In this document: positions 9,313 to 62,576 of the stretch, in pieces
Layout: each line of letters starts with the position of its first letter
Position numbering within the stretch: position 1 is the stretch's first letter
Assembly (NCBI GenBank): GCA_949130485.1
Contig: OX422188.1
Location: 323,391 to 387,390 of the forward strand
Origin: Agelas oroides
Taxonomy: Eukaryota; Porifera; Demospongiae; Agelasida; Agelasidae
Length of the DNA: 64,000 nucleotides
Direction: 5' to 3'
Made by a program: the position numbers and the translations under genes
The notes under the pieces: model-generated
The model's input: the letters and a program-made list of their open reading frames with translations, nothing else
Databases searched by the model: none
What the model was told of the DNA's origin: nothing

Positions 9313-10377
9313 TTAAGCCATGCACCTTGCTGAATCAAAGTGGTCAAAAGCATATTCTGTTCCAAATATGTTGTCCACCTTGTAGTCACTGTATTCGCCC
9401 TGGAGCACAGGATCATTCGGGTTGTCCACCTCACTGATTGGACCTCCCTGCCTGTTTCCCACATAGAGACACCAGTTTTCCTTGAGCTCCCAGTTCAGGG
9501 GATAAAGGAACCCCACAAACTGTCTCTGTTGGCCAGGATAGTTGACTGTGATGGTATAGGCATCTGTACGCACTTCTCCACGAATCTGTTCATTGTAGCG
9601 AACCACATTAATGGGGATATTCCAGAATTGACCTGTACAGAAGAGGTCCATTCAGTTGCTCATGTGTTGCAGACAAAAACAATATTATTGATTGTGATAC
9701 TGCCTCGATGATCTTAGCAGTAATAATTTGATTAGACATGCAACCCTTTGAAAGTAGGTACCACCAGGCTTCTACAAACAATGTTACATTATGACATGCA
9801 GACTAACCCAGTATGCCATGGGATGTCTCTGCCAGGTTAAGCCCACGAGCAATGACATAGCGAATCATCGGAGCCTCAAAGGTGGCATTTCCATTTTCAA
9901 AGGTACCGGTTTGGCAGAAGACCCACATGACCAGGTCATGGTCCTCACAGTTGGGTACTGCAATACGAACACGAGTTGGATATTTTCGGACAGAAATTCC
10001 TCCCATTCTGTATGACGTGGTTATCTCCACACCATCCACAAAAGCCCTGCAACCATTGAGATCTGCCCTAATGTTGTGACACTGACTAGCACCATCCACG
10101 GCTCGGACTCCGATTCTGTCAATGATGTTAATGTCCACATCACTTCTGACCCTTGCATAGTGGGCATTGACGGAGACACACACATCACTCACGAGGTTGA
10201 AGTGCTCATTTGCCTCTCCATGAACCTCATAGCACAGGGACACACGTTCATTCTCATTGAGCCCCAGTAGCATTCGAGTGCCATTTCCAACATTCAGAGG
10301 TACGGTCATGAGTGGGTCACCAGTGACTGTGTCATTAACACGAACCACTGGTGTTAGTGATGGTGGTGTTGTTGGAC
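9313..10377 (-). other. Paralogue conserved C-terminal region (ITIH-C/VWD-like)
   Basis: Exons 9808-10377 (190 codons) and 9313-9632 (to the stop). Motifs match the giant gene position by position: VNDTVTGDPLMTVPL, SLCYEVHGE, FNLVSDVCVSVNAHY, VRIAVPNC, MWVFCQ, VIARGLNL, SHGILGQFWNIPI, YVGNRQGGPI and a final DSARC. A proline/threonine-rich linker (PTTPPSLTP) precedes it. Confidence 0.75.
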
Positions 10378-20985: not shown

Positions 20986-21672
20986 GGCTTAGCGCAAATG
21001 CTTGTCACAGCGCTTGGTCACAACTATGAAGCCGCCTTTGATGTATGCGCATGTGCAATGAGCTTGAGCTTTTGGAATGTCTTTTAAATGTATGTGTTTG
21101 GTGTATGTAAGCAATCGTGCTCCATGTTGAGCGTTATCGATGAACCTTTGAACCTTTGGACAGCAACATCACATACATAGTCCAGCAGTGCAAGATACTA
21201 AAATCTCAGCTTGGAACTGACATTGTTGCTAAATGCCTCCACGATCAAGAAAATGCCACCTCCATTGTGCAATCCTCCAAAAAGGGTACCACAAACTTCT
21301 ATTTGTATCACTCTCGCACCACCCTTCAACCAAGCTAGTTACCACTATTCCAGTGTCATCATCCTAGAGACAGCTCTGGAACATGGCCCTTGATAGAGGG
21401 ACGAAAGGAACTCGTAGTATGTAATTTTATTCAAAGAACTGAGCCGCCTGCGCATCAGAGAAAAATTGTGTAAATTATGCGACCACGCTGTACGTACATA
21501 AACAAACTGCATGCCTGTGAACATCATCCCACTTTTTGGGGTGAACTCTTTAGTGAAGTAGTTGTCACCACTCTAAAAGAGGACTTGTCTGATTCTATTT
21601 TTTCTGTAATCAACTGTATATCAGACTGCAATTAATTGTGACATTAGCACTATTTATTATTTACTGCATATG

Positions 21673-23024: not shown

Positions 23025-23030
23025 TTTAAT
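23025..23030 (-). terminator. Possible polyadenylation signal of the giant gene
   Basis: The minus strand reads ATTAAA, a common variant signal, 25 bp beyond the stop codon. This would give a very short 3' UTR. Only the hexamer supports it. Confidence 0.3.
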
Positions 23031-23054: not shown

Positions 23055-23979
23055 CTAGACAATGCATCTGTTGCTATCAAATTGGCTAAAGAAAAACTCT
23101 GTCTCAAATGCACCACTGACTCGATAATCTTCATATGTTCCCTCAATAACCGAATCATTTGGGTCTTCCACTTCATAGATAGGGCCTCCCTGTTGGTTCC
23201 CCACATAAAAGCAAGGACCTTTCTCAAATTCCCAAGTGATGTCATACAATAGTCCTGTAAATGCTCTTGGAATTTCAGAGGCAGGGTGTGTGACATTGAT
23301 TACATAGCGGTTCTCTGGTTCAACACCTTCCCGAAAGCTGCCTTCAAATGCAGAGATTTGAATTGGAATATTCCAAAACTGACCTGTGTATGGTAGAAAA
23401 CATATAAACAATTGTTTGTAACAGAAGAATGAAAACACCTACCAAGAAGTCCATGGGAACTCTCGTTGAGGTTCAAGCCACGGGCAATGACAAACTTGAT
23501 CATTCTTGCAGCAAACTGCTCCTCGGTAAAGGGGTCTGTGAGAGTATTGTTTTGGCAGATTGCCCACATCACAAGGGTGCTGCTAAGGTTGCAATTTGGG
23601 ACACTGATGCGGACACGATCAGGGTAGCGACGTACAAATATCCCGTGAGATCGGTAGTTTGTGGTCAATACTACCCCATCAACAGAAGCAGAACATCCCT
23701 GAAGATTCACAGAAATATTTTTGCACTGTCCATTATTGTTGACAGCTCTAACAGCAATGATGTTTATTCCATTCAGGTAATCTGTCACTGTAAAGTAGTG
23801 TGCATTCACAGACACACACTTATCAGTCACTAAGTTAAAGTATTTGTCTCTTTCGCCATGAATCTCAAAGCAAAGTGAAGCACTGTCAATTCCAATTCCA
23901 AGGTCCTGTATGCTAGGGAGAGGTACTGTCAGCAGTGGGTCACCAACAACAGTATCATTCACATGTGGAACTTCGGGTA
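23055..23979 (-). other. Giant gene, conserved two-exon C-terminal region (ITIH-C/VWD-like)
   Basis: Exons 23443-23979 (179 codons) and 23055-23383 (to the TAG stop) encode the C terminus. Visible motifs in order: VNDTVVGDPLLTVPL, SLCFEIHGE, FNLVTDKCVSVNAHY, NYRSHGIFVRRYP, VRISVPNC, IARGLNL, SSHGLLGQFWNIPI, YVGNQQGGPI and a final DSNRC. The GDP-L/LCFEI/FNLV-D/VNA pattern resembles the ITIH C-terminal and von Willebrand D folds. The gene at 9313-20985 has the same region. Equivalence to the 'Wreath' domain of sponge aggregation factors is possible but cannot be shown here. Confidence 0.75.
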
Positions 23980-26900
23980 CTGCAGGGAAGATTATGCATA
24001 TTAAGATGGTAATACACCCACTCCAATATTCTTTCACTATCTTCAACTGCTCAGCTAACTACATTTCCTGTACCTTACATTTTGAGGTATCTTTGTGTGA
24101 TATTCATCAGTTTGACACTGGTTATTTACAAAGGTTATTTACAAAAAAACAAAACAATCTGAGTATGTGCATGAGATAGACTGGACCTCCTGGATCTATT
24201 ATTCTGTCAGCTGCAAGGCACTGAATTATATGTGTCAAATTACAATAGCATAGTATGAACTCTTGGAAGTACCTGCATCATCGATAAGAATTGTTGCTTG
24301 TGTGGCAGTGCCAGGTCGGACTGCAGCCTCATTGCCTGGGGTTTGCAGCTGAACAGCAAAGTTCTCTACGTCTTCAAATGTCCTGTCATCAGTAACCTGA
24401 ACTCCTACACAGGATATTGCATTGGGCTCCTCCAACAGGGTAAGAGTAAATTCTCCACCCACAAAGTCAGAGCCATCTGCATAAATAGAGAATACTTAGC
24501 ATGAACACTTCACTGCAAATTTTGGTCTAATACAGACAATGTGGAGAGATTACAATATTTCTCTCTGCATCTTTTTCTCACCAAACGCTGTTCCATCTAC
24601 TGTCCGCAGTGTGACATTGAAACTCCTGGCTGTTTCAAGGTCTTTTGTCACACATACCATGACCCTAACTTCTTGCTCAAGTAAACGGAAGTTTTGGCGA
24701 GTCAGTTCAGTGGTGACCACTACAAAGAGAGAAAAGAGAGTACTCTGCATACTTTGTGTCCTTTGTTCACATAGTTCTGGGGATTTATTAGTTATCAAAA
24801 CTCATCACAGGTAGTCACAACTTCTAACCAGCAAATTGCAGCAAAGATAAAATTAACCACAGAGTTGTACATGGGACCACATTCCCTTGTATTGGTCATA
24901 ATCCAATATACCTTGCAAAAAAACACTAGCATATGGCAACATTTGTAGAGTAACATGCACCAAATATTCCTGCAACCACTGTTCAAAACACACACTTCTA
25001 ACCATATATGGTGTGTAATGCTGTCAAATCATTATTTACCATCATCGTCCACAATGATGACAACAGCTCTGTCAGTGGGAAGGAGAACTCCATTCATCAT
25101 GGGATCTTGAAGCAACAGCCAAAAGTCTTCTGTTTCCTCTAGAGCAATAACATCATTAATAATTTCTCCGCTGAAGCAGGTTCTATTTTGCAATGGATCC
25201 AGAGTGACAGAGGTAGCCCCTAGTGGTACATAGTCTGTGTGCATGAGAGAATTTATGTATTCCTTTTCAAATTTGAAACTAACTTCAGCTTCATGTGCTG
25301 GCTATATATAATGTCAGCTATTCATTGCTTCCCCTTCGTCATCACTAAATATGCACTACAAGCACCCCAAGTTTACAATTATTACTCTGCAGTCTCATTC
25401 CCAGATCCCCAGCTGTGGCACAGGTATTTCAGATTGGGGGGGATGAGTAATGTTGTGTGCAAAAGCGCACAGTGGGAGGGGGGTATGGGGGCATGCCCTC
25501 CCCCAGGAAAATTTGTATGTTTAGATGCTCTGAGATTGCTTCTGAGGCCAGTTTTGGGTCAAAACAGCTGCTAGAATAGTTTTTTCAATATAGCTAGCAG
25601 TTGCCGATTTGCAGCCAAACAAGAGCATGCATTAATGTTGTATTTCATGTCATTTGGCAGCTCCAAACTTTCAAGTCTACACTTTGAGTACACCTGGGTA
25701 CATTGATTACAGATTTGAATGATGTCGCTGCTCAGCCAATGGCCAAATCTATGCTGCAGGTTGAAATGGTAGCTACGCGGATACTAGCTATGCCAAATAT
25801 TTGTGAGGGAGGATTGGGGCCCCCCCCCCCCCCCCCCCTAGTCCCCCCGGTTCCTATGCCTATGCTAAGTCTGGGAATGAGACTAAGTATACCTATGCTT
25901 CTCAGTGCAGTGTTGGGCTGGTCCTGGATTTGAAGTTGCAGTGGTCTGGTGGTGACTCGGTCCTTTACCACACACATCATGAATGTCATATCACTTTCAT
26001 TCACTTGGGTGACATTCCTCCCAAATCCAACAGTAACAACTGGTAATGAGAATAGATAATAATTATCCATAGTCTATTATTGGAACTGACTCTGTGTATA
26101 ACATAACTAGCATAATTTTAGCACTTAATTCATGCAACAAAAACTCTATGTTTTACAGTTAGATGTGACAAATCACACAATTATTATTACCCTTTAACTA
26201 CTGAATGTGTATTTTCTAGAGGTCTTGTTTCGACTAGTGACACCTTTTTTGACCTGTATTTCGACTTCTGCTGGGAGCTAGCCCTGAAAACGTGAGGCAT
26301 AGCTTCTCTCTGATGTGCTTTGCAAGTTCATGACCTTGACCACACCCACTTGTTAGCAATACTCAGGGCCCTCTGACCAGAGAACACTGCTCTGGACTGA
26401 AAGCTGCCTAAAATGCCAGAAATAGAGTCCCTACAAGGTGAAAGGGGTGGGGCTTTCTACAGCAAGCTGCAACAGCCGCCATGCAGTGTCACCTAGAGGG
26501 TGACACCTACCCACTTCCCCCCTATCCCACCTTTCTGCTAGCGCAGAACCTATCTTCAAAACAGATTGCACAAACTGATAGCATGCAGCCAAATTTCGAT
26601 GACACCTCTAGTCGTCATTAGTAGTTAAAGGGTTAAAGGAGAATATTCCATAGCAAAGATGAGTCTTTTACCACACATTTCACCAAAAAAAAAAAAAAAC
26701 GCTATAGTGTGCTAGCTACTTTAGTATCAAACCGACACTATCAGATTCTAGTTTTTCACCCCAGTGTATGACATTTCTAGCCTCGTTCTCAGGCCACTCC
26801 CAGATTTAATCTTGCAGCTGTGGAGAAGAATCCACGGCCGTGAGATAAAATCTGGGAGTGGCATGGGAACGAGGCTATGACATTTAACATAGTGGATGTC

Positions 26901-29900
26901 TTGCATAGTACTTACCATCATCATCCAAGATGTTGACAGTTGTTACACTGGGATTTCCTAGCCGTATACCAGTTGTAGGTTGTGGCAACCTGAGTACAAC
27001 ATTATAGCTCTCCAATTCTTCTAAAGCAACATCATCATTGCTTATGTTGAAGGACACACTTGTAGAGTTTAAGGAGCCAAAGCCAGCTTCAAAGATCACT
27101 GTTGTATCTATGCCATCTGCTGACTGAACAATGTTCTGCTGTGCACTTGGGCCTATCACAGTGAAACAGAAATGTTAACTTGTGCACAAGATATACATTC
27201 TTTACAGACTTACCTCCAGTAACAAACACTACAATCTCTGAAGTGGATACACCAACTTTAATAACATCTACCACGCCCACAATATCATCTTCAAAGAAGG
27301 TGTATGTCGGCAATCCAAACATCACAGTCACCTCTGAATGCATAAGGAAATGACAATATTACATAAAGGAACTTTTCTTAATGATTGTAGAGCCCTACCA
27401 TCATCATCCTCTATGGTCACATTGGATACTGGAGAAGGAAGCCTCACATCTGGATCAGTGCTATTGATAAGAACCCTGAAATCCTCTGGTGGCTCAGCAG
27501 TACTGTCGTTCAAGACTAGGATTCTCACGCAGGATTGTCTGACACTTCCACTGAATGTCAGCTCCATTAGAGTGCCTATATAGTCCTCAGAGACTGCAAT
27601 ACAAATGTGTAACAAGTGATGCATACACATCACAGGTTGGTAGAGTTGTTTCGATCTCTATGACAAGTGATTAACTTGTAACATATCATCTGGGGTGGTT
27701 TAATAGCATCTCAATGTTTAGCATATTTTGTCACAAAAATTTGCAGCAAACCTATGGCAGAGCCATCTTTAGTAGAGAGCGTGACAGTCACTGTCCTCTC
27801 TAGTGATCCACGCACAATTACAGCACAGACTTCCACGTGCCCCTCATTTTCTGTTACAGTGTATGTCCCGTTCTCCAACTCAACCGTTATCACTGTGCCA
27901 AACAGAAAGAAGTGATGCTCACACTTCGTGCATGTACTGTTGTGCTATTGACTGCTAGCTTACCATCATCGTCCACTATAAGAATGGTGGCTTCATCTGG
28001 TGCCACACTGACACTTGCATCTACACTTTCAAGCCTTAGCCTTGTGAATAGGTTCTCTTGAATCTCATCAACGTCATCATTGATGATGGACACATTGACC
28101 AAAACACGTCCAGTGTTACTATTAAAAGTCAGGAGCATATCCAAGGCAGAAAAGTCTTGAGGACCTGCAGATACAGGACAACCATATCATTGGAATCCCA
28201 ATATTGACAGATACTCACTCATCACGACTTACTCCTTGCCATCCCGTCCATGGTAAAAAGCTGCACAATGACATTTCTAGACAGATCTCCATCCAAAACT
28301 GCTACAGCTATCTCCACAATTCCATCACTTTCACTGGTAGTAAATGACGTCTTCTCAAATCCAATTCTAGCAACTATAACACAAAGTCAGAAAATTATCA
28401 CAGACACTGAGAGATAGTAGAACAAAAACAGCATACCATCGTCATCTCTAATCACAATTTGCGCAATATCGGGTAGCAGTGTCACCACACCCTCCACAGT
28501 GGATAACACAGCCATAAAATCTTCTGCTCTCTCCAGGACAGTATCATTCACAAACATGAACTGCACACATCTCCTCTCTGACCCTTCTCCAAAGGTCAGT
28601 ACAACACTCAGCTGCTGGTAGTCTGCACCAGCTGCATGAGGCAATGAGAAAATAGCAAACCATCTTCACCTTCCCGTCTATAACACTTCCTTTCCTCTAG
28701 AACTTACCCACTGCACTGCCATCCTGGGTTACTAGTGCCACCTCTACATCCCTCTGAAGACCACCATCTATCACTCTGGCACACACCTCTACTGAGCCTT
28801 GTCCCTCATCTGATGAGTATGTTTCATTCTCAAAACCAATAGTGACTCCTGTAGAAAATAATATGAATAAATTTGGACATCTCTTCCGAACTATAACGTG
28901 ATTGTCCTCACCATCATCATCAACTATAGTGATGGTACTGGGTGGCCCTGGCATCACATCTGGATCAGTGCTGTTGAGAGTGACAGTGAACTCCTCTGGG
29001 TCCTCCACCCTGCTGTCATTCTGGATTGGGATTCTCACACAGGATCTTCTGACACTCTCACTGAAAGTTAGGTCAACCGACACTGCTCGATAGTCCTCTT
29101 GATCTGGATGGATGCAAATAAAATATATCAACTGCTGGCTGAAAAGTAAATAAACACTTTGTTATAAACATTTACAACCAACCTGTGGCAGAGCCATCTT
29201 TAGTAGAGAGTGTGACAGTCACTGTCCTCTCCAGGGAGCCATGCACAATTACAGCACAGACTTCCACATGCCCCTCATTTTCTGGAACAGTGTATGTCCC
29301 GTTCTCTAACTCAACTGATATCCCTGTATCGAGGAGAAAAAGTGATGCTCACACTTCGTGCATGTACTGTTGTGCTGTTGACTGCTTGCTTACCATCATC
29401 GTCCACTATAAGAATGGTGGCTTCATCTGGTGCCACACTGACACTTGCATCTACACTTTCAAGCCTTAGCCTTGTGAATAGGTTCTCTTGAATCTCATCA
29501 ACTTCATCATTGATGATGGATACATTGACCAAAACACGTCCAGTGTTACTATTAAATGTCAGGAGCATATCCAAGGCAGAAAAGTCTTGAGGACCTGCAG
29601 ATACAGGACAACCATATCATTGGAATCCCAATATTGACAGATACTCACTCATCACAACGTACTCCTTGCCATCCCATCCATGGTAAAAAGCTGCACAATG
29701 ACATTTCTAGACAGATCTCCATCCAAAACAGCTACAACTATCTCCACAATTCCATCACTTTCACTGGTAGTAAATGACGTCTTCTCAAATCCAATTCTAG
29801 CAACTGTAACACAAAGTCAGAAAATTATCACAGACACTGAGAGATAGTAGAACAAAAACAGCATACCATCGTCATCTCTGATCACAATCTGTGCAGTGTC

Positions 29901-32900
29901 TGGTACCAGTGTCACAACACCCTCCACAGTGGATAGTGCAGCCATGAAATCCTCTGGTCTCTCCAGGGCAGTGTCATTCACCAGCTCAATCTGCACACAA
30001 CTCCTCTCTGAATCTTCTCCAAAGGTTAGGACAACACTCACTTGCTGGTAGTCTGCACTAACTGCATGGGGTAAAGAGAAAAATGCAGAAAAGTTCATGG
30101 TGTACCTTCAACTGCACGCATTTATCTTTTTCTGCACACCTACTGCGCTGCCATCCTGGGTTACCAGTGTCACCTCTACACCCCTCTGAAGACCACCATC
30201 TATCACTCTGGCACACACTTCTACTGAGCCCTGTCCCTCATCTGATGGGTAGGTTTCATTCTCAAAACCAATAGTGACTCCTGTACAGCATAGAATACAT
30301 TGTACACATAAAGTTAGTAAATTTTACATCACTTTGCAGGATATACTGTACATTATTTCTTGTCCTCACCATCATCATCGACTATAGTGACAGTGCTAGA
30401 TGGGCCCGGTATCACATCTGGATCAGTGCTGTTGAGAGTTACGGTGAACTCCTCTGGGTTCTCCACCCTTCTGTTATTCTGGATTGGGATTCTCACACAG
30501 GACTGGTTGACACTCTCACTGAATGTCAGTTCCATTGATACAGCTTGATAGTCCTCTTGGTCTGGGTGGATCAAAACAATTAAAACTAGCACCTGCCATT
30601 GGAAATGCTAGTTGCATTAGGGCTAACCTATGGCAGAGCCATCATCAGTGAGTAGGGAGACAGTCACTGTTCTCTCCAAAGATCCACGTGTAATCACAGC
30701 ACAGACTTCCACAGATCCCACATTCTCTGGGACAGTGTATGTCCTGTTCTCCAACTCGATTGTAATTTCTGCTCAATGTGAAATGTTGGTAAAGTGTGTT
30801 TTAGTGCTTTTGACTTCCTAATTATGTAATACCATGTGAACTTACGGTCATTATCTACTATCTCCGCCAAAGCTTGGAAATTGGTCCCAACTTCAACCAG
30901 GGTCTCACCAACAGGTACACTAAGTGCAGCACTGAAACTTTCCACATCTTCAAGTACATCATCATCTGTGACCACCACCTCTACAGTTATTTCCATTTCA
31001 TCGGCCGGGATGGTGACAACATAGTTTGTACGTGGTTCAAAGTCCCCTGGGCCTGTGAGAAGACACTGAGTCTTTGAGCTTTGGTCATACACTTTATGAT
31101 CAGGTCATTCATCAACCAATGAGTGTTTCACAACCCTACCTTCCGCTGATCCTGGTGAAGTGCTGAACAAAACTGTTACATCTTCTGTTGTAGTATTGCG
31201 TTTCACAATGCGGAAAATTACGTCATCTGTCTCCGGAACAGTGTATGCTGTAGGCTCAAACTCCACCACCACCACTGTAAAGTAATAGATTGCATTACAA
31301 CAATTCTTTGCAAAAATTCACACAACACAAAACTCAACTTACAAGCGTCTTCTGTGATATTAATGTTAGCAGTTTCCTGTCCAATTGTCACTCCCTCTGA
31401 GCCATCACTGAGGACTGCAGAAAGACTCTCCCTCCCCTCTACTGTGCTGTCTGGAATGGTGCGAAGAAGCACAAACTGTTCACTCTGGTTTGGAGTGAAC
31501 GTTACATTCTGTGCTGAGATGAAAGTGTAGTCTACTGGAGCTGGAAGACAAAAATAGAAATCAAGTCATCACTTCTGTAGTTGTTTAGTTACTGTTATAT
31601 GAGCTCAACCTACCCACTGCTGTTCCATCCGTAGTTGATATCAACACAGAAACTGTTATTGATGCCTCTCCAACCTTCACAATTCTAAGATTTCTCTCCT
31701 CTCCCTCTAGTACAGTGTATATAGCTGGATCAAACTCTATTATCACAGCTGAAAGGAATACAAGAAAGCGTAAATTTAATACACTAACTTTGCACGTATA
31801 TTAAGTTTGCAAACTACTCACAGTCGTCATCAGTCATCTCAACACTGGCCATGTTAGCACCAAGAACTACCCCATCCTGACCAGCTGGCAGGAATAACCG
31901 AGCAGTGAATTGCTCAGTTCCTTCGAAAGTATTGTCTGGCAAGATGGGTACCATAACTATTTGTGAAGCATCTGCAGCCTGAAATGTCAATGTTACTGAA
32001 GTTGTTGTGTAGTCTTCTCCAGCTGTAGAATGCACGTAGATACAACATAGTTGATGTCTCCTGTCACAGCAACATTTGCTACTTAGTACCTGTCGCAGAG
32101 CCATCTGCAGTATTGAACTCCACATTGACTACAAGTGTTGTTTGGCCCCTCTTCACAACTGTGATGTTGGCTAGGCGGCCAGACTCAGAGACAGTGTAAC
32201 TTGTAGGATCAAACTCCACCGTCACAACTGGAGATGAAGGTATAATTCACTATATGTCAGCATTATATAGCTTGGTTGAAGCCATACAGTATTAAGCTTT
32301 CTCAAAACGGTGCACTCACACCCACCATCATCATCCTGGATCATGACTCTTGCAGTGTCTGGTACCAGTCTCACCACCGTTTCCACGGTGGTTAACACAA
32401 CCGTCAAGTTCTCTGGTCCCTCAAAGATAGTATCATTCACCAGCTCAATCTGCACACAACTCCTCTCTGAACCTTCTCCAAAGGTTAGGACAACACTCAC
32501 TTGCTGGTAGTCTGCACTAACTGCATGGGGTAAAGAGAAAAATGCAGAAAAGTTCATGGTGTACCTTCAACTGTACGCATTTATCTTTTCCTGCATACCT
32601 ATTGCACTGCCATCTTGGGTTACCAGTGTCACCTCTACACCCCTCTGAAGACCACCATCTATCACTCTGGCACACACCTCTACTGAGCCTTGTCCCTCAT
32701 CTGATGGGTAGGTTTCATTCTCAAAACCAATAGTGACTCCTGTAGAACATAGAATACATTGTACATATAAACTTAGTGAATTGTACATCACTGCAGGATA
32801 TACTGTACATGCATTCTTCCTAAAATATAAAGTGCTTGTCCTCACCATCATCATCGACTATATTGACAGTGCTGGGTGGGCCCGGTATCACATCTGGATC

Positions 32901-50900: not shown

Positions 50901-53900
50901 ACTGTAAAGCAACAGATTGCATTACAACAATAATTTTTCTTTGCAAAAATTCACACAACACAAAGCTCAACTTACAAGTGTCTTCTGTGATAGTAATGTT
51001 AGCAGTTTCCTGTCCAATTGTCACTCCCCCTGAGGCATCACTGAGGAGTGCAGAAAGAGTCTCCATCCCCTCCACTGTGCTGTCTGGAACGGTGCGAAGG
51101 AGCACAAACTGTTCGCTCTGGTTTGGAGCAAACGTTATATTCTGTGCTGAGATGGAAGTGTAGTCCACTGCAGCTGGAAGACAAAAATAGAAATCAAGTC
51201 ATCACTTCCGTAGTTGTTTAGTTACTGTTAAATGAGCTCAACCTACCCACTGCTGTTCCATCCATAGTTGATATCAACACAGAAACTGCTATTGATGCCT
51301 CTCCAACCTTCACAATTCTAAGATTTCTCTCCTCTCCCTCTGGTACAGTGTATACAGCTGGATCAAACTCTATTATCACAGCTGAAAAGGAATACAAGAA
51401 AGCATAATTTAATACACTAGCATTGCGCATATATTAAGTTCGCAAACTACTCACAGTCATCATCAGTCATCTCAACACTGGCCATGTTAGCACCAAGAAC
51501 TACCCCATCCTGACCAGCTGGCAGGGATAACCAAGCAGTGAATTGCTCAGTTCCTTCGAAAGTATTGTCCGGCAAGATTGGTACCATAACGATTTGTGAA
51601 GTATCTGCAGCCTGAAATGTCAATGTTACTGAAGTTGTTGTGTAGTCTTCTCCAGCTGCAGAGTGCATGAAAATTAGTTATATAACTCTATGCTGTACTG
51701 AGCACAGATTTTATTCATTCTAACCCCTGGCAGAGTTGTCTGCAGTATTAAAGGTCACACTGACTGCCCGAGTTGTGCTTCCACGTTTCACAACTGTGAT
51801 ATTGGCAAGACGACCGGATTCAGAGACATTGTAACTTGTGGGGTCAAACTCAACTGTCACAGCTGGTAAGAGAGAGAGAGAGAGATACACACAATAATTA
51901 TTATGCTCTCTTCACAACATGATCGGTATGAATGCTTACAGTCGTCATCAGTGATCTCAATACTGGCCATGTTATCACCAAGCACCACCCCAGTCTGACC
52001 AGCTGGCAGTGATAACTGAGCAGTGAACCGCTCCACACCTTCAAGAATGTTGTCAGGCAAGATGGGCACCATCACAACTTGTGAAGTCTCTGCAGCCTGA
52101 AATGTTACTGTCACTGATGTTGTTGTGTAGTCCACTCCATCTGCAGAATGCATGACAATCTGTTCTATAACTCTATGCTGTAATAAATAGAGACCTTAAC
52201 AACTAACCAATAGCAGAGTTGCGTGCAGTACTAAAGTCCACGCTGACTGCAAAAGTGGTTTGTCCCCTCTTCACGACCGTGATATTGGTAAAGCGGCCAG
52301 ACTCAGAGACGGTGTAGCTTGTGGCACTAAACTCCACAGTCAGAGCTAGAGAGAGGTACAAAAATGCTTGAAATACTTTCTCTATAACACATAGGCAGTA
52401 TAAATCACTCACAGTCATCATCAGTGATCTCAACTGTGGCTGTGTTTGCACCAAGAACTACCCCAGTCTGACCAGCTGGCAGTGATAACTGAGCAGTGAA
52501 CTGTTCGACTCCTTCAAGAAGAGTGTCAGGCAAGATGGGTACCATCACAACTTGTGAACTTTCTGCAGCCTGAAATGTCACTGTCACCGAAGTTGTTGTG
52601 TAGTCTTCTCCAGCTGCAGAGTGCATGAGGACCAGTCCTATAGCTTTATGTTGTACTGAATAGAGAGCTAATTAATTCTAACCAATGGCAGAACCATCTG
52701 AAGTATCAAACTCCAAACTGACTGCAAGTGTCGTTTGTCTCCTCTTTACAATTGTGAGGTTAGCAAAGCGGCCAGACTCAGAGACAGTGTAGCTTGTGGG
52801 ATTGAACTCCACTGTTACAGCTGGAGGGAGAGAAACATATGATTATAATACATACTTACTTAACAATACTAGCTGAATAAATTACTCACTGTCATCATCA
52901 GCAATCTCAACTGTGGTCGTGTCTGCACCAAGCACTACCCCAGTCTGACCAGCTGGCAGTGATAACCGAGCAGTGAACTGTTCGACTCCTTCGAACGTAT
53001 TGTCAATCAAGATGGGTACCATAACTATTTGTGAAGTATCTGCAGCCTGAAATGTCAATGTTACTGAAGTTGTTGTGTAGTCTTCTCCAGCTGCAGAGTG
53101 CATGAAAATTAGTTACATAACTCTATGCTGTACTGACCACAGATTTATTCATTCTAACCCCTGGCAGAGTTGTCTGCAGTATTAAAGATCACACTGACTG
53201 CCTGAGTTGTGCTTCCATGTTTCACAACTGTGATATTGGCAAGACGACCAGATTCAGAGACATTGTAACGTGTGGGATCAAACTCAACTGTCACAGCTGG
53301 TAAGAGAGAGAGAGAAATACAAACAATAATTATTATGCTCTTTTACAACATTATCAGTATGAATGCTTACAGTCGTCATCAGTGATCTCAATACTGGCCA
53401 TGCTAGCACCAAGCACCACCCCAGGCTGGCCAGCTGGCAGTGATAACTGAGCAGTGAACTGCTCCACTCTTTCAAGAATGTTGTCAGGCAAGATGGGTAC
53501 CATCACAACTTGTGAAATCTCTGCAGCCTGAATTGTTACTGTCACTGAAGTTGCTGTGTAGTCCACTCCAGCTGCAGAGTGCATAAATTGTATAAATTTC
53601 AGCAGTTCTGAACAGAGAGCTTAATAATTCTAACCAATGGCAGAGCTGTCTGCAGTACTAAAGTCTACACTGACAGCAAGTGTTGTCTGTCCCCTCTTCA
53701 CAATTGTGAGGTTGGCAAAGCGATCAGACTCGGTGACAGTGTAGCTTGTAGGATCAAACTCCACTGTCACAGCTGGAAAATGGGATACACAAATGATTGT
53801 AATGCCTCCTGTACAGTATCACAGGATGCGTGAATGGCTTACAATCATCATCAGTGATCTCAACTGTGGCTGTGTCAGAACCAAGTACCACTCCCCTCTG

Positions 53901-56900
53901 ACCAACTGGCAAAAACAGTTGAACCCTGAATTGTTCCACTCCTTCAAGAGTATTGTCACCCAAGATGGGCACCATCACAACTTGTGAAGTCCCTGCAGGC
54001 TGAAACACCACAGTTGTTGAAGTGGTTGTGTAGTCCTCTCCAGCTGTAGAAAGCACAAAAATCAGTTTTGCAGCTGTAACTAATGAACAGAGAGCTTATT
54101 AATTCTAACCAGTGGCAGAGTTGTTTACAGTGGAGAAGTCCACAACAATTGGAAATAATGTCTGTCCCCTCTTCACAACTGTGATGTTGGCAAAGCGGCC
54201 AGATTCAGAGACAGTGTAGCTTACAGGATCAAACTCCACTGTCACAGCTGAAAAGAGAAATATACAAACATAGAATACTATCTCTGTAGTATTGGCTACA
54301 CAAATGACTCACAGTCATCATCAATGATCCTGACTGTGGCTGTGTCTGCACCAAGCATCACACCATCCTGACTAGTTAGCAGTGATAGCCGAGCAGTGAA
54401 CTGCTCGACAACTTCCCCACGAGTATCAGCCAAGATGGGCACCATCACAATTTGCGAAGTATCTGCAGCCTGAAATGTCACTGTCACTGAAGTTGCTGTG
54501 TAGTCCTCTCCGGCTGTAAAGTGCAATATTGATTATCTCTGTGCTGTATTTAACATGAATAGCTGGAAGACATACCAATAGCAGGACCATCTACAGTGAC
54601 GAAGTTCACACTGACTGTCTGTGTGATTTGTCCCCTCTTCACAATTGTGATGTTGGCAAAGCGATCGGACTCAGAGACAGTGTAGCTTGTGGGAGCAAAT
54701 TCCACAATCAATGCTGAGAAGAGATGTACGCACATAGTATGTTTACTTCCTTTTATACAACAGTTGAACTAATACTTCCTTAACAATACTAGCTGAATAA
54801 ATCACTCACTGTCATCATCAGTGATCTCAACTGTGGCAGTATTTGCACCAAGCATCACTCCATCCTGACCAGTTGGCAGGGATAACCGAGCAGTGAACCG
54901 CTCCACTCCTTCAACAAGACTGTCATTTATGATGGGCACCATCACAACTTGTGAAGCATCTGCAGCTTGAATTGTCACTGCCATTGAAGTTGCTGTGTAG
55001 TCATCTCCAGCTGTATGCAAAATGGATGAGCGTCACCATAGTTACTCAGTATACTAAATTTCAATGAAAAATTAGTCTAACCAATGGCAGTGTTGGCTGA
55101 AGTAGTGAAGTCCACATTGACTGCAAGGGTGGTTTGTCCTCTCTTCACAATTGTAATATTGGCAAAACGGCCAGACTCAGGGACGGTGTAGCTTGTGGGG
55201 TCAAACCCCACTGTTATTACTGCATGATTAGCATGAACCCATTAATCACAAATTCATTAAATTATTTCATAAAACTTTACCATCATTGTCTGTGATTTGG
55301 ATTGTAGTTTGGCGTGGTCGAATGGTAAGTCTTGGAATGTTTGGTACAACACCTCCACCAGTTTGAACTCCAACCAACTCTCCAGTAAAGTCCTCAGTCC
55401 CCTCAAGAACTTGGTCATCAAAAATGGTAATTTTAAGACACTGAGTGTTAGATACACTTTGACTAAAGTTGTAAAATGATGAAGCAGATGGAGGTGAATA
55501 GTCCTGTGGTGAATCTTCTGCATGGGACATAAGATAGTGTACAAGAGGTAGTGGCAACTTGCTACATTAATTAGTAGAGGATGATGAAACACACAATATG
55601 ATATGAATAGTATTCTGCCTACCACTTGCAGAACCTTCTTGCCATTGAGGTTGAAGGGAAATGGCTCGTCCAAGATCTCCTGTCATGACAACGCATATGT
55701 TCACCATTCGTTGTGCGAGACCACTTGACTCAGCAAATGTATAGAGTTCTCGTTCAAACCCAACAGTTGCAACTGTGCACAAAAATAGTACTGTAAACCT
55801 GAGCTATGCAAAAGCACCAACCTTACAAAGTTATATTTGACAAACACTGATGCTTAATTGCTGTACACAGAACAGATATCCACATGTAACAAAGGCAAGA
55901 TTGCAGTGTACAAGAACTTACCCTCATCATCCAAAATGTTGACTGTGGCACTTCCAGGGTCAATGCGGACTCGTGTGACACCAGAAGCTAAGCTTAAATC
56001 AACCTGAAAATTTTCAATATCCATCTCAAAAAGCATGTCATTTGTGATCCTGATTGAAAAGCAGTTCTGGCGAGATGAGTTACTGAATTGATTCAGTAAA
56101 GTGCTATCAGTCAGTTGCTGAAAATCAAGCTCCGCTAAAGGAACAGGGATAAAAGAAAAGAAAATTAATAGGAGTTATGTAAGAGTAAATTATTGCACCA
56201 CATACAAGCTGAGCCTCTTTCTGTGTTGAGTATCAGTGAGAAGGTGAATGGAATGGGGGCACTGGTAGAAGGTTGTGAAATGCTGACACAGAGCTCCACT
56301 CGACCAGCACTCTCAGATATATTCACAGCTGTCTGCTCAAATCCAACAACAACATCTGAAGGAAAGTGAGAACAGCATAAATTATTGCTTTGGTAAAGTC
56401 ATATGCTACTTCAACCAGTTACTTTATTCATAAAACTATAAACGAGAATCACTCACCATCTGTATCAGTTATCACTATGGTAGTAGTAGCATTTGTACCA
56501 TTGGCAACTTCGGTGCCTTTGTACAGTGTGAAGCCTTCTAAATTTTCAGGAATGTCATCAGAATGAATCGTGAAAGAGACCTGTTTGGTACTTTGAAGTG
56601 GCTGGAAAGTAAATGTTTGAGCCTGGAAAGTGAAGTCTTCTGCAGTTGTTGCCCTGTCAATAGCGTTAACTAAGGGAACCATTTGCACTGTTACGACAAG
56701 TAGGTGATCAGCCAAAACCTCTAGTATTAGTGGGATCTCATACATTGTATCAACTTCAGGCTCAGCAAATTCGTACATTGATTGACGAAATCCAACTCTG
56801 GCATCTGCATGGAGAAATGAGTAGCAAGGTAGTGTCCGTAATAAAGTACAAGACTGTGACAAAATGTCTTGGATCACAACCTTGTTTGAGTAGTTGTAAT

Positions 56901-58473
56901 CCAGATATAAATGAATATCATTCAACTATACTCACTATCATTATCAAATATTCGAATCAATGTAGCCCTTCTAGCTGTGCTGTTAAGTATTGCCCCTTCA
57001 GTGATTTGTAGAACATCCAAGACTGCAATGAATCCTTCTTGATCCGTCTCATCAATAAGATCATCCACTATCGGCAGTGTTGGGCGAAGTACAATGCCAG
57101 GCCGTTCCCCGCTTGGTATGGTAAAGTTCTGTGATTGTTGGTCAAAATCAGAAGCTGTGAAATAAGTTAAAGAAGATTGATCACCCATACTCAACAATCA
57201 GTCAGTAGTAAAAAGCAGCTACTTGCAATAAACAGTTATAGTAAGAGGTGGTCAAATGTACAAACTCTAGGTAGCAAATAATCTTGTGTGAGTGTGTGCA
57301 TACAAATATGTTTAAATAGTGTGTGTACACATGCACACAATGTTTAGCCTCATTTCCAGGCCTCTGTCCAGCTTTCTGTCACTTGCTGGTATGATAGTGG
57401 GAGAACAATCTGCAAGTGAGGGACTGCTAGGCAGGGCCCAAGAACGAGGCTACACAATAATATCCACACATATACACCTATATTATGCACATATGCATAT
57501 ACAACTTTAATGGCTCTAACCACTAGCTGCTGTAGGTGCCCCAGTAGGTACTTGCATCCCCATTTGCTCGAATTCAGAGTAAAGTAGTGGAGTAATTTGC
57601 ACGATAACATCAGTAGTAAATACTGAGCTGGAACTAACTGTGATCCCAACCCGTTGTGCAGGCTCTCTGTTGTCATAGTCTGCTTCTACAAACTGAAGTG
57701 TTGCCACTGCAGAAACGAGATGGACAAGACAATGAACGCCACTGAAGTTGATCCACACAATGTACACACCGGCAGACTATTGAAGGTAGCGTAAAATATG
57801 TGGAACCTTTGTTCTGCTTATGATTGGTATCTGTATATCTAATTTAAGTGCAAACAACACTTTCTAGTCAAATGTTGAATGTATCCCTACGTATTATTGA
57901 TCAACCTCAGTCAAATATTGAAGGCACTAGCATGTTATGTGATGACATCAGTCTTCATCAAATGCCATCTATTAGCTTGTAAAATTAATAAGTGAGATGA
58001 TAACTAATACAGTTAATCAAGAACAATGATTTAACAGAGTAAGTATTAGCATATCCTACCAGTGGTATCCATAATGAGGACATTCAGAGGGCTCTGTAAA
58101 AACTGTCCAGAAGAAAGTGATCCAGATGCCAGCTCAAGATCCAAATGAAACGTCTCATTTCCTTCAACCAAGTTGTCACTGTTTGCCGTGAATGGCAGCT
58201 CAACAGATGGTCTAGTTGATCTTAGCGTGATTGTGCCTCCAGTTGGTATTGGCTCAATGTAGTCATTTCCACCTATTGTAGTGAAAACTAAGGTGCTAAA
58301 GATTTGTATACAGGAAAGGCATAAGGGATACACACTTCAAATGTATATCAAATGTTAAATACATGCTGAAGTAATAACAAACTTCGCACACACTTTGCCT
58401 ACATAACATGCTCAGTGCAGAATTGCTGTTACGGCTTATATCATATACTTGTGTTTATAAACCCTATGTAGTG

Positions 58474-58504
<31 letters not shown>

Positions 58505-61500
58505 ATCATACATGGAACAATATGTGACATCTAGATAAGACAGCAAATCATACCTCCCCAGAAAAAAAAACAACTTAGCCCAGTCACCAAAAAATTTCAG
58601 TAGTAGTCTATACAGTTTACCAGTAGAGTCGGCTTACTAAAGCTTGCAGTCCCATCAGTGCGGGATACCCTCAAAGAAAGTCTCCTCCCCGGAAGAGACC
58701 CTTTGATAGTTGTAACTGCAACAGTAGTACGTTCTTCTCCTGCCTCACGAATGACTATACTTGTGTTCACAAACCCAAATACTAAAGAAGAAGAAACAAA
58801 GTGCAAGACGCAACAGCAATATTACTCCTTACTCCAAAATACCAAGTTTTATTTTTTTCAACCTCAGAGTAAACATGGCCACTTAAAATGCAGCAAAAGA
58901 GGGAAGGCTGATGAAATTAGCATGTGTGACCACGAGGGTGAGAAACCAGCACTAAAATCGTGAGCCGGTAAATCTGTGAAATTTGGGAGGCCTAATGTGG
59001 TCAATAATGAAATCCCGCATACAGGTAAGCAACACTTGTGTTTCTATGGAGATGAAGCTTCTAAAGTGCTGCTTTCATATAGCTGCATTAAACAATGAAC
59101 CATTAAACAACCATTAAACTTCTATAGTACTAGCCACAAACCATTGCATAGAGTGCAGGTTCCTCCATTCATGTAAGCCATTCCCCTCTCACTGAGACAA
59201 CACAAACTTTCATCGGTAGTATCTGTGAGTTCTGTTCCTGTGCAGTCAGCTCCAATGAAGCAACGAACAGTCTGGGAGTTGCCTGCAACAGAGTTAAAGG
59301 ATATATTTTGGTAATAACTGTTTGTGTTGAAATGTACATTGAAATGTTGCATCGCCAACTATAAAAAACACTCTTGGGTATTTATGAACCACCATTACCT
59401 TGACTCTGAAGTTACATTTACATACCAGGTATAGAGCCTTGTTCTCAAGTCACTAGCTTATTAGTGCTTGCACCACAAAATAACCAATTGCAATGTCTAT
59501 CGTGTAATGTGTTGGAGAGCCTGGGAATGTAGAAGATGGAAGTGTGCATGTGTGATCATGTGAGAACTACGACTATGATTTTGCTCCCAACAAACCCGAC
59601 ACCAGGATGCAAAACAGAATCTGAGATTTCTCCTACCAACACCTCAAGAAGTAAAGAACTAATTCTAGTTGGAAAACAGATGGTGTCCATATGGTGAAGT
59701 TCAATAAATCCAGTGCATCCATTTGAAGTTTCTTATTTGCTACTGCAGGGGTTCATCAGCTACTGATGCATGGTAACATGAGCAGGGGTAGGTTGTGGCC
59801 AACAGATGGCTGTTGTTTACTGATTAACTAACACCGCCACAGCAAAGGAACCACAGTTCAACTTGGTGGTCACAATTAGCCACATAGAGGCTACTGACAA
59901 CCAAGATATCCCAGTCAAATTTCACAGTGGGGTAATTAGGTGTTGCATATGGATGGCTTAGCTCCTCTACGTTACTAAGGCAACCACAATGTTACCACAT
60001 GCAAGGCTGCAGTGTGGTTCGTTTGTTGTGGCAATTGTAGTTAAACATGTTGGCCACAATTCATTGCGTGGTAGCTAGGGTTCCTGAGCACCAGAAAACA
60101 GAGTAGGCATGCATGGGCATAGGGGATTGTTACCTATAGGTCACTGGATAACAGAAGTTAACTAGATATTTACTGACTGGGATAATTTCTGCTAAAACCT
60201 GGGGTGAGCTTGAGTAAGCCCCACAAAGTTGTGTCAGTGAGGCCAGTCTACTGTTAAATGCTTAGGCATTGTCAAGTTTACTGTATGCCAGACTTACCAT
60301 CCATATCACTGCAAAAACAAATCGGTTGTTTAAACCACAGAGTGGTTACCCTGGTTGCAGTGGTGGGGGGTGGGGGCATGCTCCCCTAGCAAATTTTTGT
60401 ATTTGAAATGCCATCGGTCTTGAGTCAGGAGTAGTTCTGACCCATGAGCTTTGGTACGTATATGTGGGTGCAGTACAGGCCTCCACCAGTAACGCCAAAC
60501 TCGTGAACAGTGAGGTCATAGTTAATATACACTCTACGGTGAGGCCAAGAGAGCATAGGAAACTGCATCATTCTATAGATGCAAATAGCTATACTACAAT
60601 GTTCAATCTGACACCCGGGCCCAGGCCCGGCCGGGTTGGCATGGGCTTGACTATGCTATTGCCTGGTTGCAGTCAAGCTAAAGGGACAGTGGTTATAAGA
60701 GGTTTATTTTGGTATTAGAGACTACCTGCATAAGGAAATCAGAAAGGCAACTGCCCTGATGGATGAACAACCAGGCTCAGCTCATCTTACAACCACAATA
60801 CACATACAACCCTCAGAACATCTGTGATGGAGTCACTACAAATGCACAGTTCAAAGTAGCAGTAAGGAACTTTCATATGTTCTTATAATGCAAGCGATTA
60901 CCTCATGGTTACTATCAGCAGGATCATGGTTGTAAAATAATCAAGGCAGCTGCCTCCATAACTGCCTTATGCAATTAGTCTGTAATACTAAAGTAGACTT
61001 CTCATAACCACTGTCTCTTCAGCTTCACTGCAACCATGGTAACCACTCTGTGATTTACACTGTCGCAAAGTGTGTGCTAGCCCAAGAAATTCAACTTGGT
61101 TAATCAGACCGTTTCTCCTCATGAAAGGGTGGGGTCTGGGAATGAGACTAACATTATACTAGCCTGTAAAACATGGCCTCTTGCTTCCCAATGCCCTTTT
61201 GACTACAGATGGATTCAAATGGATGGGGTCAACCACTTCCGGAGAGCAACTCTGTAATTGAGAGGGAGCAGTACAGTTGACCTTTTGCCTTGATGGAAGC
61301 TTCTATTTGCATCTTTCACGCGTCACTAATTTTAGGAATTGATGTAACGCTTCTTTGCCTACATTTTGTACATAACTGGACTGCACGCAAACCCCACCCG
61401 TTGCCCTCCAAAAGTGAATACTTAATATACTAAGCCATACTCCATGAACTGATCACCTGATTATACTGGCAGATTGATCATGCTCAAGATAGGGTTTAAC

Positions 61501-62430
61501 AATAGTTAAGCCAGTTAACGGGGAGGGGCTCACTGCACAAGTTGTCCCGCTCACACCTTCGGATTGGGGAGGGAAGCACCAAGGGCTTCCGTTGGAGGAG
61601 TTAATACCAGAAGTAGGATTCCTACTTGATCTTAACAGGACCCAAATCCATTACAGGGTACATTCCAATGTTCAGGCACTGACACCAAGTAACCTCGTTC
61701 CCATTCTCTCAGCCAGGGAATGGGATTATGGCACCAAAGCATGCACCTGCCTTCCGGTACACCACCAACAATGGTAACCACAATGGGTACGAAAAGCATT
61801 TATGACAAGAGGCCGACGGTAGTTAACTTACAACAGTAATCGTGCTGGAGTAACAACTGTGATATAAACACAAGTTGGCAGCTTACCAGGCTACAAGTGT
61901 CTCCTGCATGGTGGTGGTTAGAGCTATTACTATAGACTTGTACCCAGTAGTATGCAACATTTTAGGCAAGTGAGTCTAATTACAGAGCATAGATAATAAG
62001 GTCAGTCCAGTAGTCCACTCCAGTTGTCCAGTCCAGTGAATAGAGACACCCTGGGTTTTAGATATATGGTAGTTCTTTGAATCAGCATTTATCGCCGCGC
62101 TGTACTTTGACCTATGATACAAAAAACAAACGCCTTCTCAGCGCGCGCGCATCGAGAGTTTCGCGGCTGGTTTGGATTCTGCATCTACGTTTTGGAGGTC
62201 TGATATATATACTCTGGTGGTGCACGCGAGTTTTTAGTATGTGTGCATGAAGACTGCAGAACCACCGCGGTTTCGGCATACGCGATTACCTACAATAATT
62301 GTTGTTTTGTAAATAGCATAATCATGCAGGAAAGACATACATGAGTTTACTAACCTGATTCGAATAGTGCGCTTAAGACCACTAGCAGAGCAGCAACTAC
62401 GCTGCAGTAGCATGTTACCGATGGCACCAT
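23055..62430 (-). CDS. Giant secreted Calx-beta repeat protein, 133 predicted exons
   Basis: I traced 133 exons from ATG 62430 to TAG 23055-23057. They sum to 23,193 nt, exactly divisible by three, giving 7,730 residues. Exon 1 (62355-62430) encodes a signal peptide and exon 2 (59142-59282) a cysteine module; 65 Calx-beta domains and a two-exon C-terminal region follow. Every internal junction is phase 1 with GT-AG borders. Most B exons end in DDDG, DDDC or a DND motif, the calcium-site signature of Calx-beta domains (known from Na/Ca exchangers, FRAS/FREM and sponge aggregation factors). No transmembrane segment was seen, so a secreted calcium-dependent adhesion or matrix role is inferred. 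Nine tandem five-domain units form its centre. The product is far larger than its neighbour at 9313-20985, which has five domains. Exon and domain counts depend on hand-read splice sites and on correct assembly of near-identical repeats. Confidence 0.85.
25391..25884. mobile_element. 494-bp element with AGTCTCATTCCCAGA ends, 7 bp from a splice donor
   Basis: The ends are AGTCTCATTCCCAGA and TCTGGGAATGAGACT. Its interior holds G/C-rich dispersed-repeat sequence and a poly-C run at 25820-25838. The donor of the exon ending at 25893 begins at 25892. Confidence 0.6.
26189..26635. mobile_element. Inverted copy of the AACCCTTTAAC-ended element
   Basis: It begins ACCCTTTAACTACTGAATG and ends TAGTAGTTAAAGGGTT. 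Blocks such as GACCTTGACCACACCCACT are the reverse complement of the copy at 16077-16589. It lies in an intron of the giant gene. Confidence 0.6.
26778..26877. mobile_element. 100-bp foldback with TAGCCTCGTTCTCAGGCC ends
   Basis: The ends are TAGCCTCGTTCTCAGG and CATGGGAACGAGGCTA, with a second inverted pair, CACTCCCAGATTT and AAATCTGGGAGTG, inside. Confidence 0.65.
29867..32227 (-). repeat. Array unit 9 (C-terminal)
   Basis: Exons: 32090-32227, 31822-32022, 31614-31748, 31343-31540, 31140-31274, 30846-31052, 30628-30768, 30370-30561, 30140-30280, 29867-30061. Its second and third exons resemble those of unit 1 (ASVEMTDDDC; VIIEFDP), so the two edge units retain older variants while the inner ones have been homogenised. 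Its last domain overlaps the three-domain duplication found further downstream. Confidence 0.85.
32326..34699 (-). repeat. Array unit 8
   Basis: Exons: 34562-34699, 34289-34489, 34075-34209, 33811-34008, 33618-33752, 33322-33528, 33104-33244, 32846-33037, 32599-32739, 32326-32520. Exon 8 begins DEEDYQ rather than DQEDYQ. Exon 10 is closer to unit 9 than to unit 7. Confidence 0.85.
34781..37159 (-). repeat. Array unit 7
   Basis: Exons: 37022-37159, 36746-36946, 36532-36666, 36261-36458, 36068-36202, 35774-35980, 35556-35696, 35298-35489, 35054-35194, 34781-34975. Exon 10 uses an AAG acceptor. The preceding intron (34976-35053) is 78 nt and open in frame, so retention would insert 26 residues without a shift. 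Confidence 0.85.
37241..39611 (-). repeat. Array unit 6
   Basis: Exons: 39474-39611, 39202-39402, 38986-39120, 38721-38918, 38528-38662, 38234-38440, 38016-38156, 37758-37949, 37514-37654, 37241-37435. Its first exons resemble unit 5, while its later exons resemble unit 7 (EVTIEF in exon 7, an AAG acceptor before exon 10), so it is a junction unit. The last intron (37436-37513) is 78 nt with no in-frame stop. Confidence 0.85.
39691..42059 (-). repeat. Array unit 5
   Basis: Exons: 41922-42059, 41650-41850, 41434-41568, 41169-41366, 40966-41100, 40672-40878, 40460-40600, 40202-40393, 39957-40097, 39691-39885. It is the near-identical partner of unit 3. Confidence 0.85.
42139..44507 (-). repeat. 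Array unit 4
   Basis: Exons: 44370-44507, 44098-44298, 43882-44016, 43617-43814, 43414-43548, 43120-43326, 42908-43048, 42650-42841, 42405-42545, 42139-42333. It is the near-identical partner of unit 2. Confidence 0.85.
44587..46955 (-). repeat. Array unit 3
   Basis: Exons: 46818-46955, 46546-46746, 46330-46464, 46065-46262, 45862-45996, 45568-45774, 45356-45496, 45098-45289, 44853-44993, 44587-44781. It matches unit 5 at an offset of 4,896 bp apart from a few substitutions concentrated near 45.9-46.5 kb. It shares SLELTF and the ADPSS codon context in exon 7 with unit 5. Confidence 0.85.
47035..49403 (-). repeat. Array unit 2
   Basis: Exons: 49266-49403, 48994-49194, 48778-48912, 48513-48710, 48310-48444, 48016-48222, 47804-47944, 47546-47737, 47301-47441, 47035-47229. 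It is near-identical to unit 4 at an offset of 4,896 bp, for example sharing MELTF in exon 8 and the LLHAV intron-exon border before exon 10. Confidence 0.85.
49483..51862 (-). repeat. Array unit 1 (N-terminal, most diverged)
   Basis: Exons: 51725-51862, 51455-51655, 51247-51381, 50976-51173, 50767-50901, 50471-50677, 50252-50392, 49994-50185, 49749-49889, 49483-49677. The first two exons resemble the preceding one-domain repeats. The fourth exon differs from other units (AAVDYTS, LSDASGG, STVEGME). The last four exons resemble the core units, so the unit is a mosaic. Confidence 0.8.
51940..55219 (-). repeat. Giant gene, domains 6-12: one-domain tandem repeat, period about 476 bp
   Basis: There are seven A/B exon pairs of constant size (138 and 201 nt): 55082-55219/54810-55010, 54576-54713/54313-54513, 54110-54247/53843-54043, 53635-53772/53371-53571, 53159-53296/52890-53090, 52683-52820/52413-52613 and 52208-52345/51940-52140. 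A exons start V(T)VEF and contain SES(G/D)RFANIT(I/V)VKRG. B exons start AGEDYT and end DDDC or DDDS. Successive A exons begin 506, 466, 475, 476, 476 and 475 bp apart. The stretch at 53159-53590 is almost the same as 51725-52150, showing a later three-domain duplication on top of the single-domain one. Confidence 0.8.
57345..57452. mobile_element. 108-bp element with TAGCCTCATTTCCAGGCC ends
   Basis: The ends are TAGCCTCATTTCCAGG and CAAGAACGAGGCTA. It belongs to the same end-sequence family as 26778-26877. It lies between the B exon of domain 2 and its upstream A exon. Confidence 0.55.
58473..58502. repeat. (CA)n microsatellite
   Basis: About 15 CA dinucleotides in an intron of the giant gene, between the A and B exons of domain 1 and close to the former. 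Confidence 0.9.
59142..62430 (-). other. 5' end of the giant gene: signal-peptide exon, 3.1-kb intron, cysteine-module exon
   Basis: Exon 1 is 62355-62430 (25 codons plus one base). It starts MVPSVTCY, is followed by a hydrophobic stretch (VVAALLVVLSALF), and ends at a GTTAGT donor. Exon 2 is 59142-59282 (47 codons) and carries cysteines in the order C, C, CC, C-x2-C, the same pattern as exons at 16891-17028 and 3535-3672. Its donor is GTTTGT. The intron between them (59283-62354) shows no exon that I can support. It holds repeat-like stretches, including a G-rich dispersed repeat near 60361-60440. Confidence 0.7.
59283..62354. other. Intron 1 of the giant gene, no gene seen
   Basis: Open frames on either strand here are short, without recognisable motifs. 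A G-rich repeat near 60361-60440 is shared with 25440-25560. I see no further Calx-beta or cysteine-module exon. Confidence 0.5.
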
Positions 62431-62570: not shown

Positions 62571-62576
62571 TATATA
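62571..62576 (-). promoter_or_regulatory. Possible TATA box upstream of the giant gene
   Basis: The minus strand reads TATATA about 140 bp upstream of the ATG at 62430. A start site about 30 bp downstream would leave a 5' UTR of roughly 110 nt. The support is sequence-only and weak. Confidence 0.25.

Follow-up and report, generated by a model that had tools for sequence, protein, structure and literature searches.

In demosponges, allorecognition is under the control of a gene cluster of proteoglycan aggregation factors that carry an extracellular Calx-beta domain, according to PMC10815962. The core proteins of these factors are elongated or circular multimers of up to 1 µm and bear about 20 long acidic glycans (PMC7828597, in part). 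Among other Calx-beta proteins, human ADGRV1 (VLGR1) has 35 such domains (PMC10323441, in part). The stretch analyzed here, referred to as the window, comprises 64,000 nucleotides of the Agelas oroides assembly (contig OX422188.1, C6:323391-387390); genome-wide searches covered that assembly of 259.3 Mb in 141 contigs. Its minus strand carries a giant gene of 133 exons, the product of which, judging from its sequence, is probably a secreted core protein of the sponge aggregation-factor type.

A 133-exon gene with 65 Calx-beta domains

The final chain runs from 62430 to 23055 on the minus strand and encodes 7,723 amino acids, with the sole stop codon at its end. The predicted product has a mass of 829 kDa and an isoelectric point of 4.05. 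Each of the 132 introns lies in phase 1, begins with GT and ends with AG, and all 131 internal exons have lengths that are multiples of 3. Introns are short (median 73 nt), the longest being intron 1 (3,072 nt) and introns 127 and 128 (876 and 658 nt). An earlier note on this DNA had read an unbroken frame over 133 exons, and that reading was borne out.

Exon 1 (62355-62430, set by hand) contains the start codon, a predicted signal peptide, MVPSVTCYCSVVAALLVVLSALFES, with a hydropathy peak of 2.41, and a phase-1 donor. Exon 2 (59142-59282, bounds also set by hand) encodes a cysteine module (CFIGADC..CC..CTLC). Exons 3-131 (24273-58781) encode 65 tandem Calx-beta domains, counted with a profile made from the gene's own exon pairs; each domain occupies two exons, apart from one single-exon domain. 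Exon 132 (23443-23979, with NDTVVGDPLLTVPL) and exon 133 (23055-23383, with GQFWNIPI and the stop codon TAG) encode the two parts of a C-terminal domain of 288 residues. The anatomy first proposed for the protein (signal peptide, cysteine module, 65 Calx-beta domains, a separate C-terminal domain and no evident anchor) thus holds, and the giant 133-exon gene as first described is confirmed.

Exons were predicted with an ad hoc splice-aware Viterbi model that was written for the present analysis and trained on the region itself. When forced to a single gene, the model placed its first exon at 59690 and returned 133 exons, the last of them ending at 23055. Because the exon at 59690 lacks a signal peptide, exons 1 and 2 were replaced by the signal-peptide exon and the cysteine exon of the start chosen earlier (62430-62355 and 59282-59142), which join in phase 1. 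These hand-chosen exons and some low splice scores are weak points of the gene model. The Viterbi score reached 3,199 for the minus strand, compared to 82 for the plus strand and 0 to 2.1 for four first-order Markov shuffles. Since the model was trained on the same gene, these scores are a contrast rather than independent proof; a chance origin of the 133-exon chain was rejected on the plus-strand and shuffle scores.

The Calx-beta profile of Pfam (PF03160) was run, with a lenient E limit of 10 for each stretch, on three pieces of the protein that together cover 20 of the 65 domains; 38 of the other 45 lie in repeat units 2-9 of the array described below. It matched 19 of the 20 (5 of 6 in the N-terminal piece, 5 of 5 and 9 of 9), with piece scores of 199.5, 330.5 and 562.5 bits compared to a cut-off of 27. 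The earlier note had looked to about 65 hits to this family; what stands is the nearly complete match in the pieces scanned rather than a full Pfam count. In the alignment of all 65 domains, two E are present in every domain, and an early E and the D of the next column in 64 each. When N is accepted at two columns and E in place of D at one, seven acidic calcium-site columns are jointly kept in 60 of the 65 domains; all eight acidic columns, read strictly, are kept in 44. The acidic columns were equated with the calcium ligands of NCX partly via the alignment, and in part they are columns that we take to be such ligands. A composite query made from the array retrieved the NCX calcium-binding domains from PDB (E 5.8e-15). 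CBD1 and CBD2 of NCX1 belong to the same Calx-beta domain family; they differ in being regulatory, in lying inside an exchanger and in numbering two copies only.

Signal peptide and membrane segments were both judged by hydropathy, without a dedicated predictor. Windows above 1.6 were found at the N-terminus and at three places inside Calx-beta domains, all three with charged residues, and no membrane anchor is therefore evident. By this measure the protein combines a signal peptide and tandem Calx-beta domains with no anchor, as expected for an aggregation factor. The joint conservation of the seven acidic columns makes a calcium-dependent extracellular fibre plausible. Calx-beta domains are about 4 nm long, so 65 of them would form an arm of about 260-290 nm. 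Of the calcium-stiffened fibre envisaged in the earlier note, the calcium dependence is thus plausible, while length and stiffness are extrapolated.

The window gene resembles ADGRV1 in having a long Calx-beta array in an extracellular chain. It differs in showing neither GPS nor seven-helix region in the scanned pieces and no evident transmembrane segment, and an ADGRV1-like receptor was rejected on the missing GPS and membrane segment. The few dozen Calx-beta copies that had been credited to ADGRV1 agree with the 35 reported for it (PMC10323441, in part). A very long array is less exceptional in this genome than had been claimed, as C14:7532001-7582000 holds a 113-exon model with 56 Calx-beta domains (not Pfam-checked), a signal-like start and a 1.17-kb repeat period. 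A separate chain upstream on C14 has a GPS-like motif (TCSCNHLTNFAV), so the C14 Calx-beta genes are possibly ADGRV1-like receptors. At C13:8362001-8382000 there is a homogeneous Calx-beta array with a two-domain period of 1,032 bp; its 20 kb contain 20 exon pairs, each encoding a domain.

The repeat array and the domain count

Comparison of units within the Calx-beta region defines nine repeats of about 2.45 kb (29324-51381, minus strand), each with ten exons encoding five Calx-beta domains, or 45 domains. Among units 2-5, pairwise differences range from 3 to 30 of 2,448 positions. With 3 differences in 2,448 positions between units 2 and 4 and again between units 3 and 5, a 4.9-kb dimer is present twice at 99.9% identity. 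Identity to units 2-5 is 96% for unit 1, 91-92% for units 6 and 7 (97.9% alike), 88% for unit 8 and 79% for unit 9.

Introns were more divergent than exons in 9 of the 11 unit pairs tested. For older pairs among units 1, 2, 6, 7 and 8, divergence is 7-13% in introns compared to 4.5-7.3% in exons; the intron excess is less than one point between units 2 and 9, and exons are the more divergent between units 1 and 2 and between units 8 and 9. The ratio of nonsynonymous to synonymous substitution (dN/dS) is 0.27-0.53 in all ten unit pairs tested (36 are possible), which supports a working gene. The array reads as coding sequence under constraint that grows and shrinks in steps of five domains. Unequal crossing-over between five-domain units would alter the length of the arm, and because every intron is in phase 1, every product of such an exchange would be in frame.

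Since the 4.9-kb dimers are nearly identical, recent duplication or the assembly may have shaped the count of 65. It is conceivable, if somewhat unlikely, that the gene is real and its domain number was altered by the assembly of these dimers, with a true allele of about ten domains fewer, or of more. The 3 differences between paired units speak for such an error, and haplotype copies may exist elsewhere; a genome-wide DNA search with one unit gave no information on them, since that search skips common words and the array's own copies were unlisted as well. On the other hand, frames and splice sites are intact in every unit, and units 1 and 6-9 are clearly older than units 2-5, so that an assembly echo does not account for most of the array. 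The C13 and C14 arrays also show similar local homogeneity.

Paralogues and the aggregation-factor reading

The earlier note had not seen that the gene is one member of a family. The C-terminal domain was found at 13 places in the genome and in two weak fragments. Eleven of the 13 lie on C6 between 0.22 and 1.73 Mb, with one each on C12 and C22; the count leaves aside duplicate matches from overlapping loci and the fragments at C6:875k and 992k. Calx-beta exons are present within 1.5-kb flanks at 7 of the 13 places. Of the remaining six, two have a Pfam VWD exon immediately before the domain (C6:494413, copy 495545; C22:2820973, copy 2823654) and same-strand Calx-beta exons farther upstream. 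VWD itself has 16 exon matches in the genome. For the paralogue at locus L016, an intron-less C-terminal domain was considered and rejected, as the read-through contains a stop.

The window gene has a relative on each side. The gene model of its upstream neighbour (C6, about 408-388 kb) includes 20 Calx-beta domains, which are diverse among the matches listed; this neighbour also has a cysteine module and the C-terminal domain. The downstream paralogue (window 9313-17014, minus strand) has a cysteine module (16892-17014) related to that of exon 2, divergent Calx-beta exons and the shared C-terminal domain; its start exon is not established and its gene models vary with the settings. A third related module at 3536-3655 is likely the start of a further paralogue past the left edge. 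The window gene, both neighbours and the third module are all on the same strand. The clustering of similar genes expected for aggregation factors is thus present, with 11 of 13 places on C6 and a same-strand neighbour on each side. Among the three family members with countable domains, the window gene is the longest.

The host is most likely a silica-forming sponge. A DNA pattern for CGASYAF, the silicatein active-site stretch in which serine replaces the catalytic cysteine as the mark of silicateins, matches at a cluster of three places on C4, and its reversed control matched nowhere. Around one of these places, five frames gave a cathepsin propeptide inhibitor match in one, papain families in three and no match in one. 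The second C-terminal exon was also searched by peptide patterns in a collection of 84,980 prokaryote genomes. Among 16 pattern matches there was one relative, LWTN01000179.1, from a metagenome-assembled genome of a Cycloclasticus symbiont of a Poecilosclerida sponge. On this contig, pairs of Calx-beta exons precede the two exons of the C-terminal domain, which is 52% identical over 180 residues; with this arrangement it is most likely sponge host DNA, and probably host contamination in the symbiont genome. The sponge host expected for an aggregation factor is thus indicated by silicatein-like sequences and a Poecilosclerida-associated relative. No relative was found in a viral contig collection, either with the single protein or with one of the C-terminal exon alignments. 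On the Poecilosclerida contig (L056), the last C-terminal exon is followed at 5816-6155 by a second, divergent copy of itself that is split in two, a local duplication of the gene's end.

The likeness to described aggregation factors, such as MAFp3/MAFp4 of Clathria (Microciona) prolifera and Amphimedon AqAF, lies in tandem Calx-beta domains and clustered genes (PMC10815962, in part). The window gene differs in its 65 Calx-beta domains, five-domain higher-order repeat and N-terminal cysteine module, and in having no Pfam VWD in the pieces scanned; the likeness is one of described architecture. The 36-kDa aggregation-factor protein of Geodia is a different protein (PMC4557014, in part). As aggregation factors are generally known, secretion, a sponge host, VWD in some members and a conserved C-terminal domain are further shared traits. 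Grice et al. in 2017 reportedly described the family as a gene cluster with Calx-beta, von Willebrand and terminal Wreath domains. In such a system, Ca2+ binding would stiffen the secreted Calx-beta chain into an arm a few hundred nanometres long. Through the C-terminal domain, arms would be linked to one another or to the core of the aggregation factor, where the glycans sit, and the factor would then bridge cells in a Ca2+-dependent and species- or individual-specific manner.

Several observations weigh against this assignment. No Pfam VWD match was found in the scanned pieces of the window gene, and at four of the 13 C-terminal copies the 1.5-kb flank lacks Calx-beta and VWD exons alike. 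The Calx-beta genes on C13 and C14 do not share the C-terminal domain in the stretches read, and arrays of that kind show that Calx-beta domains alone prove nothing. The C-terminal domain is a candidate for the published Wreath domain, an identity that rests on the general architecture of the family. In an Amphimedon graft transcriptome, adhesion mediated by aggregation factors was not enriched (PMC5450542), so the allorecognition role is not settled. Lastly, the 7,723-residue protein contains no RGD and a single LDV, and so no obvious cell-binding motif.

The lack of such motifs would also suit a structural fibre of the mesohyl matrix, a FRAS/FREM-like scaffold without a role in cell recognition, and matrix proteins of the FREM/FRAS group do have Calx-beta domains. 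This explanation appears quite improbable. FRAS/FREM proteins carry CSPG repeats, and none were found in the scanned pieces. A paralogue cluster with a common C-terminal domain, two members of which have VWD, fits the pattern of aggregation factors instead.

The C-terminal domain and surrounding sequences

The sequence G-D-P occurs once in the 7,723 residues, at the start of the C-terminal domain, with 274 residues following its Asp. Eleven of 12 aligned rows keep the surrounding NDT(V/I)xGDPL, as does the Poecilosclerida-associated relative; the remaining row has G-G-P. This 12-row alignment leaves out the partial copy at C6:998k, whose second exon was kept in the other exon alignment. In all 12 rows the residue after G-D-P is Leu in place of the usual His, so that the domain has G-D-P-L rather than G-D-P-H. 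In the VWD domain of FCGBP, changing His to Asn inhibits cleavage (PMC10880436, in part). The replacement of His by Leu makes self-cleavage at the sponge G-D-P doubtful. Cleavage might instead depend on a helper enzyme or some other mechanism, or the motif may simply be conserved as a turn.

Weak similarity was seen between this domain and the ITI_HC_C family (PF06668), the C-terminal domain of ITIH heavy chains. Both exons were joined for 6 of the 13 places (the window gene and five paralogues), and four of these six gave a match. E values were 0.047 for the window gene and 0.043, 0.05 and 5.4e-05 for three paralogues; two paralogues gave no match. All matches fall below the cut-off of 27 bits, with 23.3 bits for the best (the C22 paralogue, E 5.4e-05) and 13.7 for the window gene. 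None of 24 single exons matched. A genome-wide search with PF06668 also gave no match and is uninformative, as control genomes gave none either. Used as profiles against PDB sequences, neither of the two exon alignments retrieved a usable match (one hit at 0.54 with the one; best 0.0052, Multicystatin, over 48 positions with the other).

Apart from these matches, the two systems share G-D-P at the start of the domain, and the 274 residues after the sponge Asp compare with ITIH pro-domains of 239 and 244 residues (PMC7170535, in part). They differ in the Leu or His that follows G-D-P, and the sponge pieces scanned have neither VIT nor vWFA, with the Calx-beta array instead. It is conceivable, though unlikely, that the ITIH pro-domain has a sponge cousin in this domain. 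A cut at the Asp-Pro bond of G-D-P would then separate a Calx-beta arm from a C-terminal piece, and the new C-terminal Asp of the arm would be ester-linked to a large acidic glycan. One aggregation-factor precursor yields two proteins, which such a cut, if true, would explain. No title or abstract opening among the literature matches listed links the sponge aggregation-factor family to ITIH, which is not proof of absence.

It is very improbable that two separate genes were fused by the forced single-gene model: unforced Viterbi runs on the minus strand do break the chain at 26.9-25.2 kb into a 128-exon gene and then a 5-exon gene, and the introns of 876 and 658 nt found there are the longest after intron 1, but the forced chain keeps phase 1, domain halves on either side complete each other, and the upstream paralogue has, by eye, same-order counterparts of exons 126 and 128-131 before its C-terminal domain. 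An in-frame stop lies upstream of the ATG of the single gene. Pattern scans of the minus strand placed a TATA-like box, by consensus match only, at 62571-62576, 146 nt before the ATG, and a polyadenylation-type hexamer at 23025-23030, 24 nt past the stop.

Other sequences were noted to the left of the gene. Between it and the downstream paralogue, an open frame on the minus strand (window 20455-20988) has a signal-like start (MAPLLYLILILSFSKAQ) and cysteines; it gave no Pfam match and is possibly a separate secreted or membrane protein. Two short arrays of a near-identical 25-bp unit (GTAAATCAACGCCATTTCTTGTTC plus C or A) lie near the start of the downstream paralogue (17334-17383 and 18067-18165), and a minisatellite with 18 copies of a 37-bp unit occupies 4994-5647.

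Aggregation factors are a classic system for cell adhesion and self-recognition in sponges. Changes in arm length through in-frame exchange of five-domain blocks would be one tangible way in which individuals come to differ. From the G-D-P conserved at the domain junction follows a prediction about a single bond that is open to mass spectrometry. If true, kinship with the ITIH pro-domain would place protein-to-glycan ester chemistry of the ITIH kind near the base of the animals.

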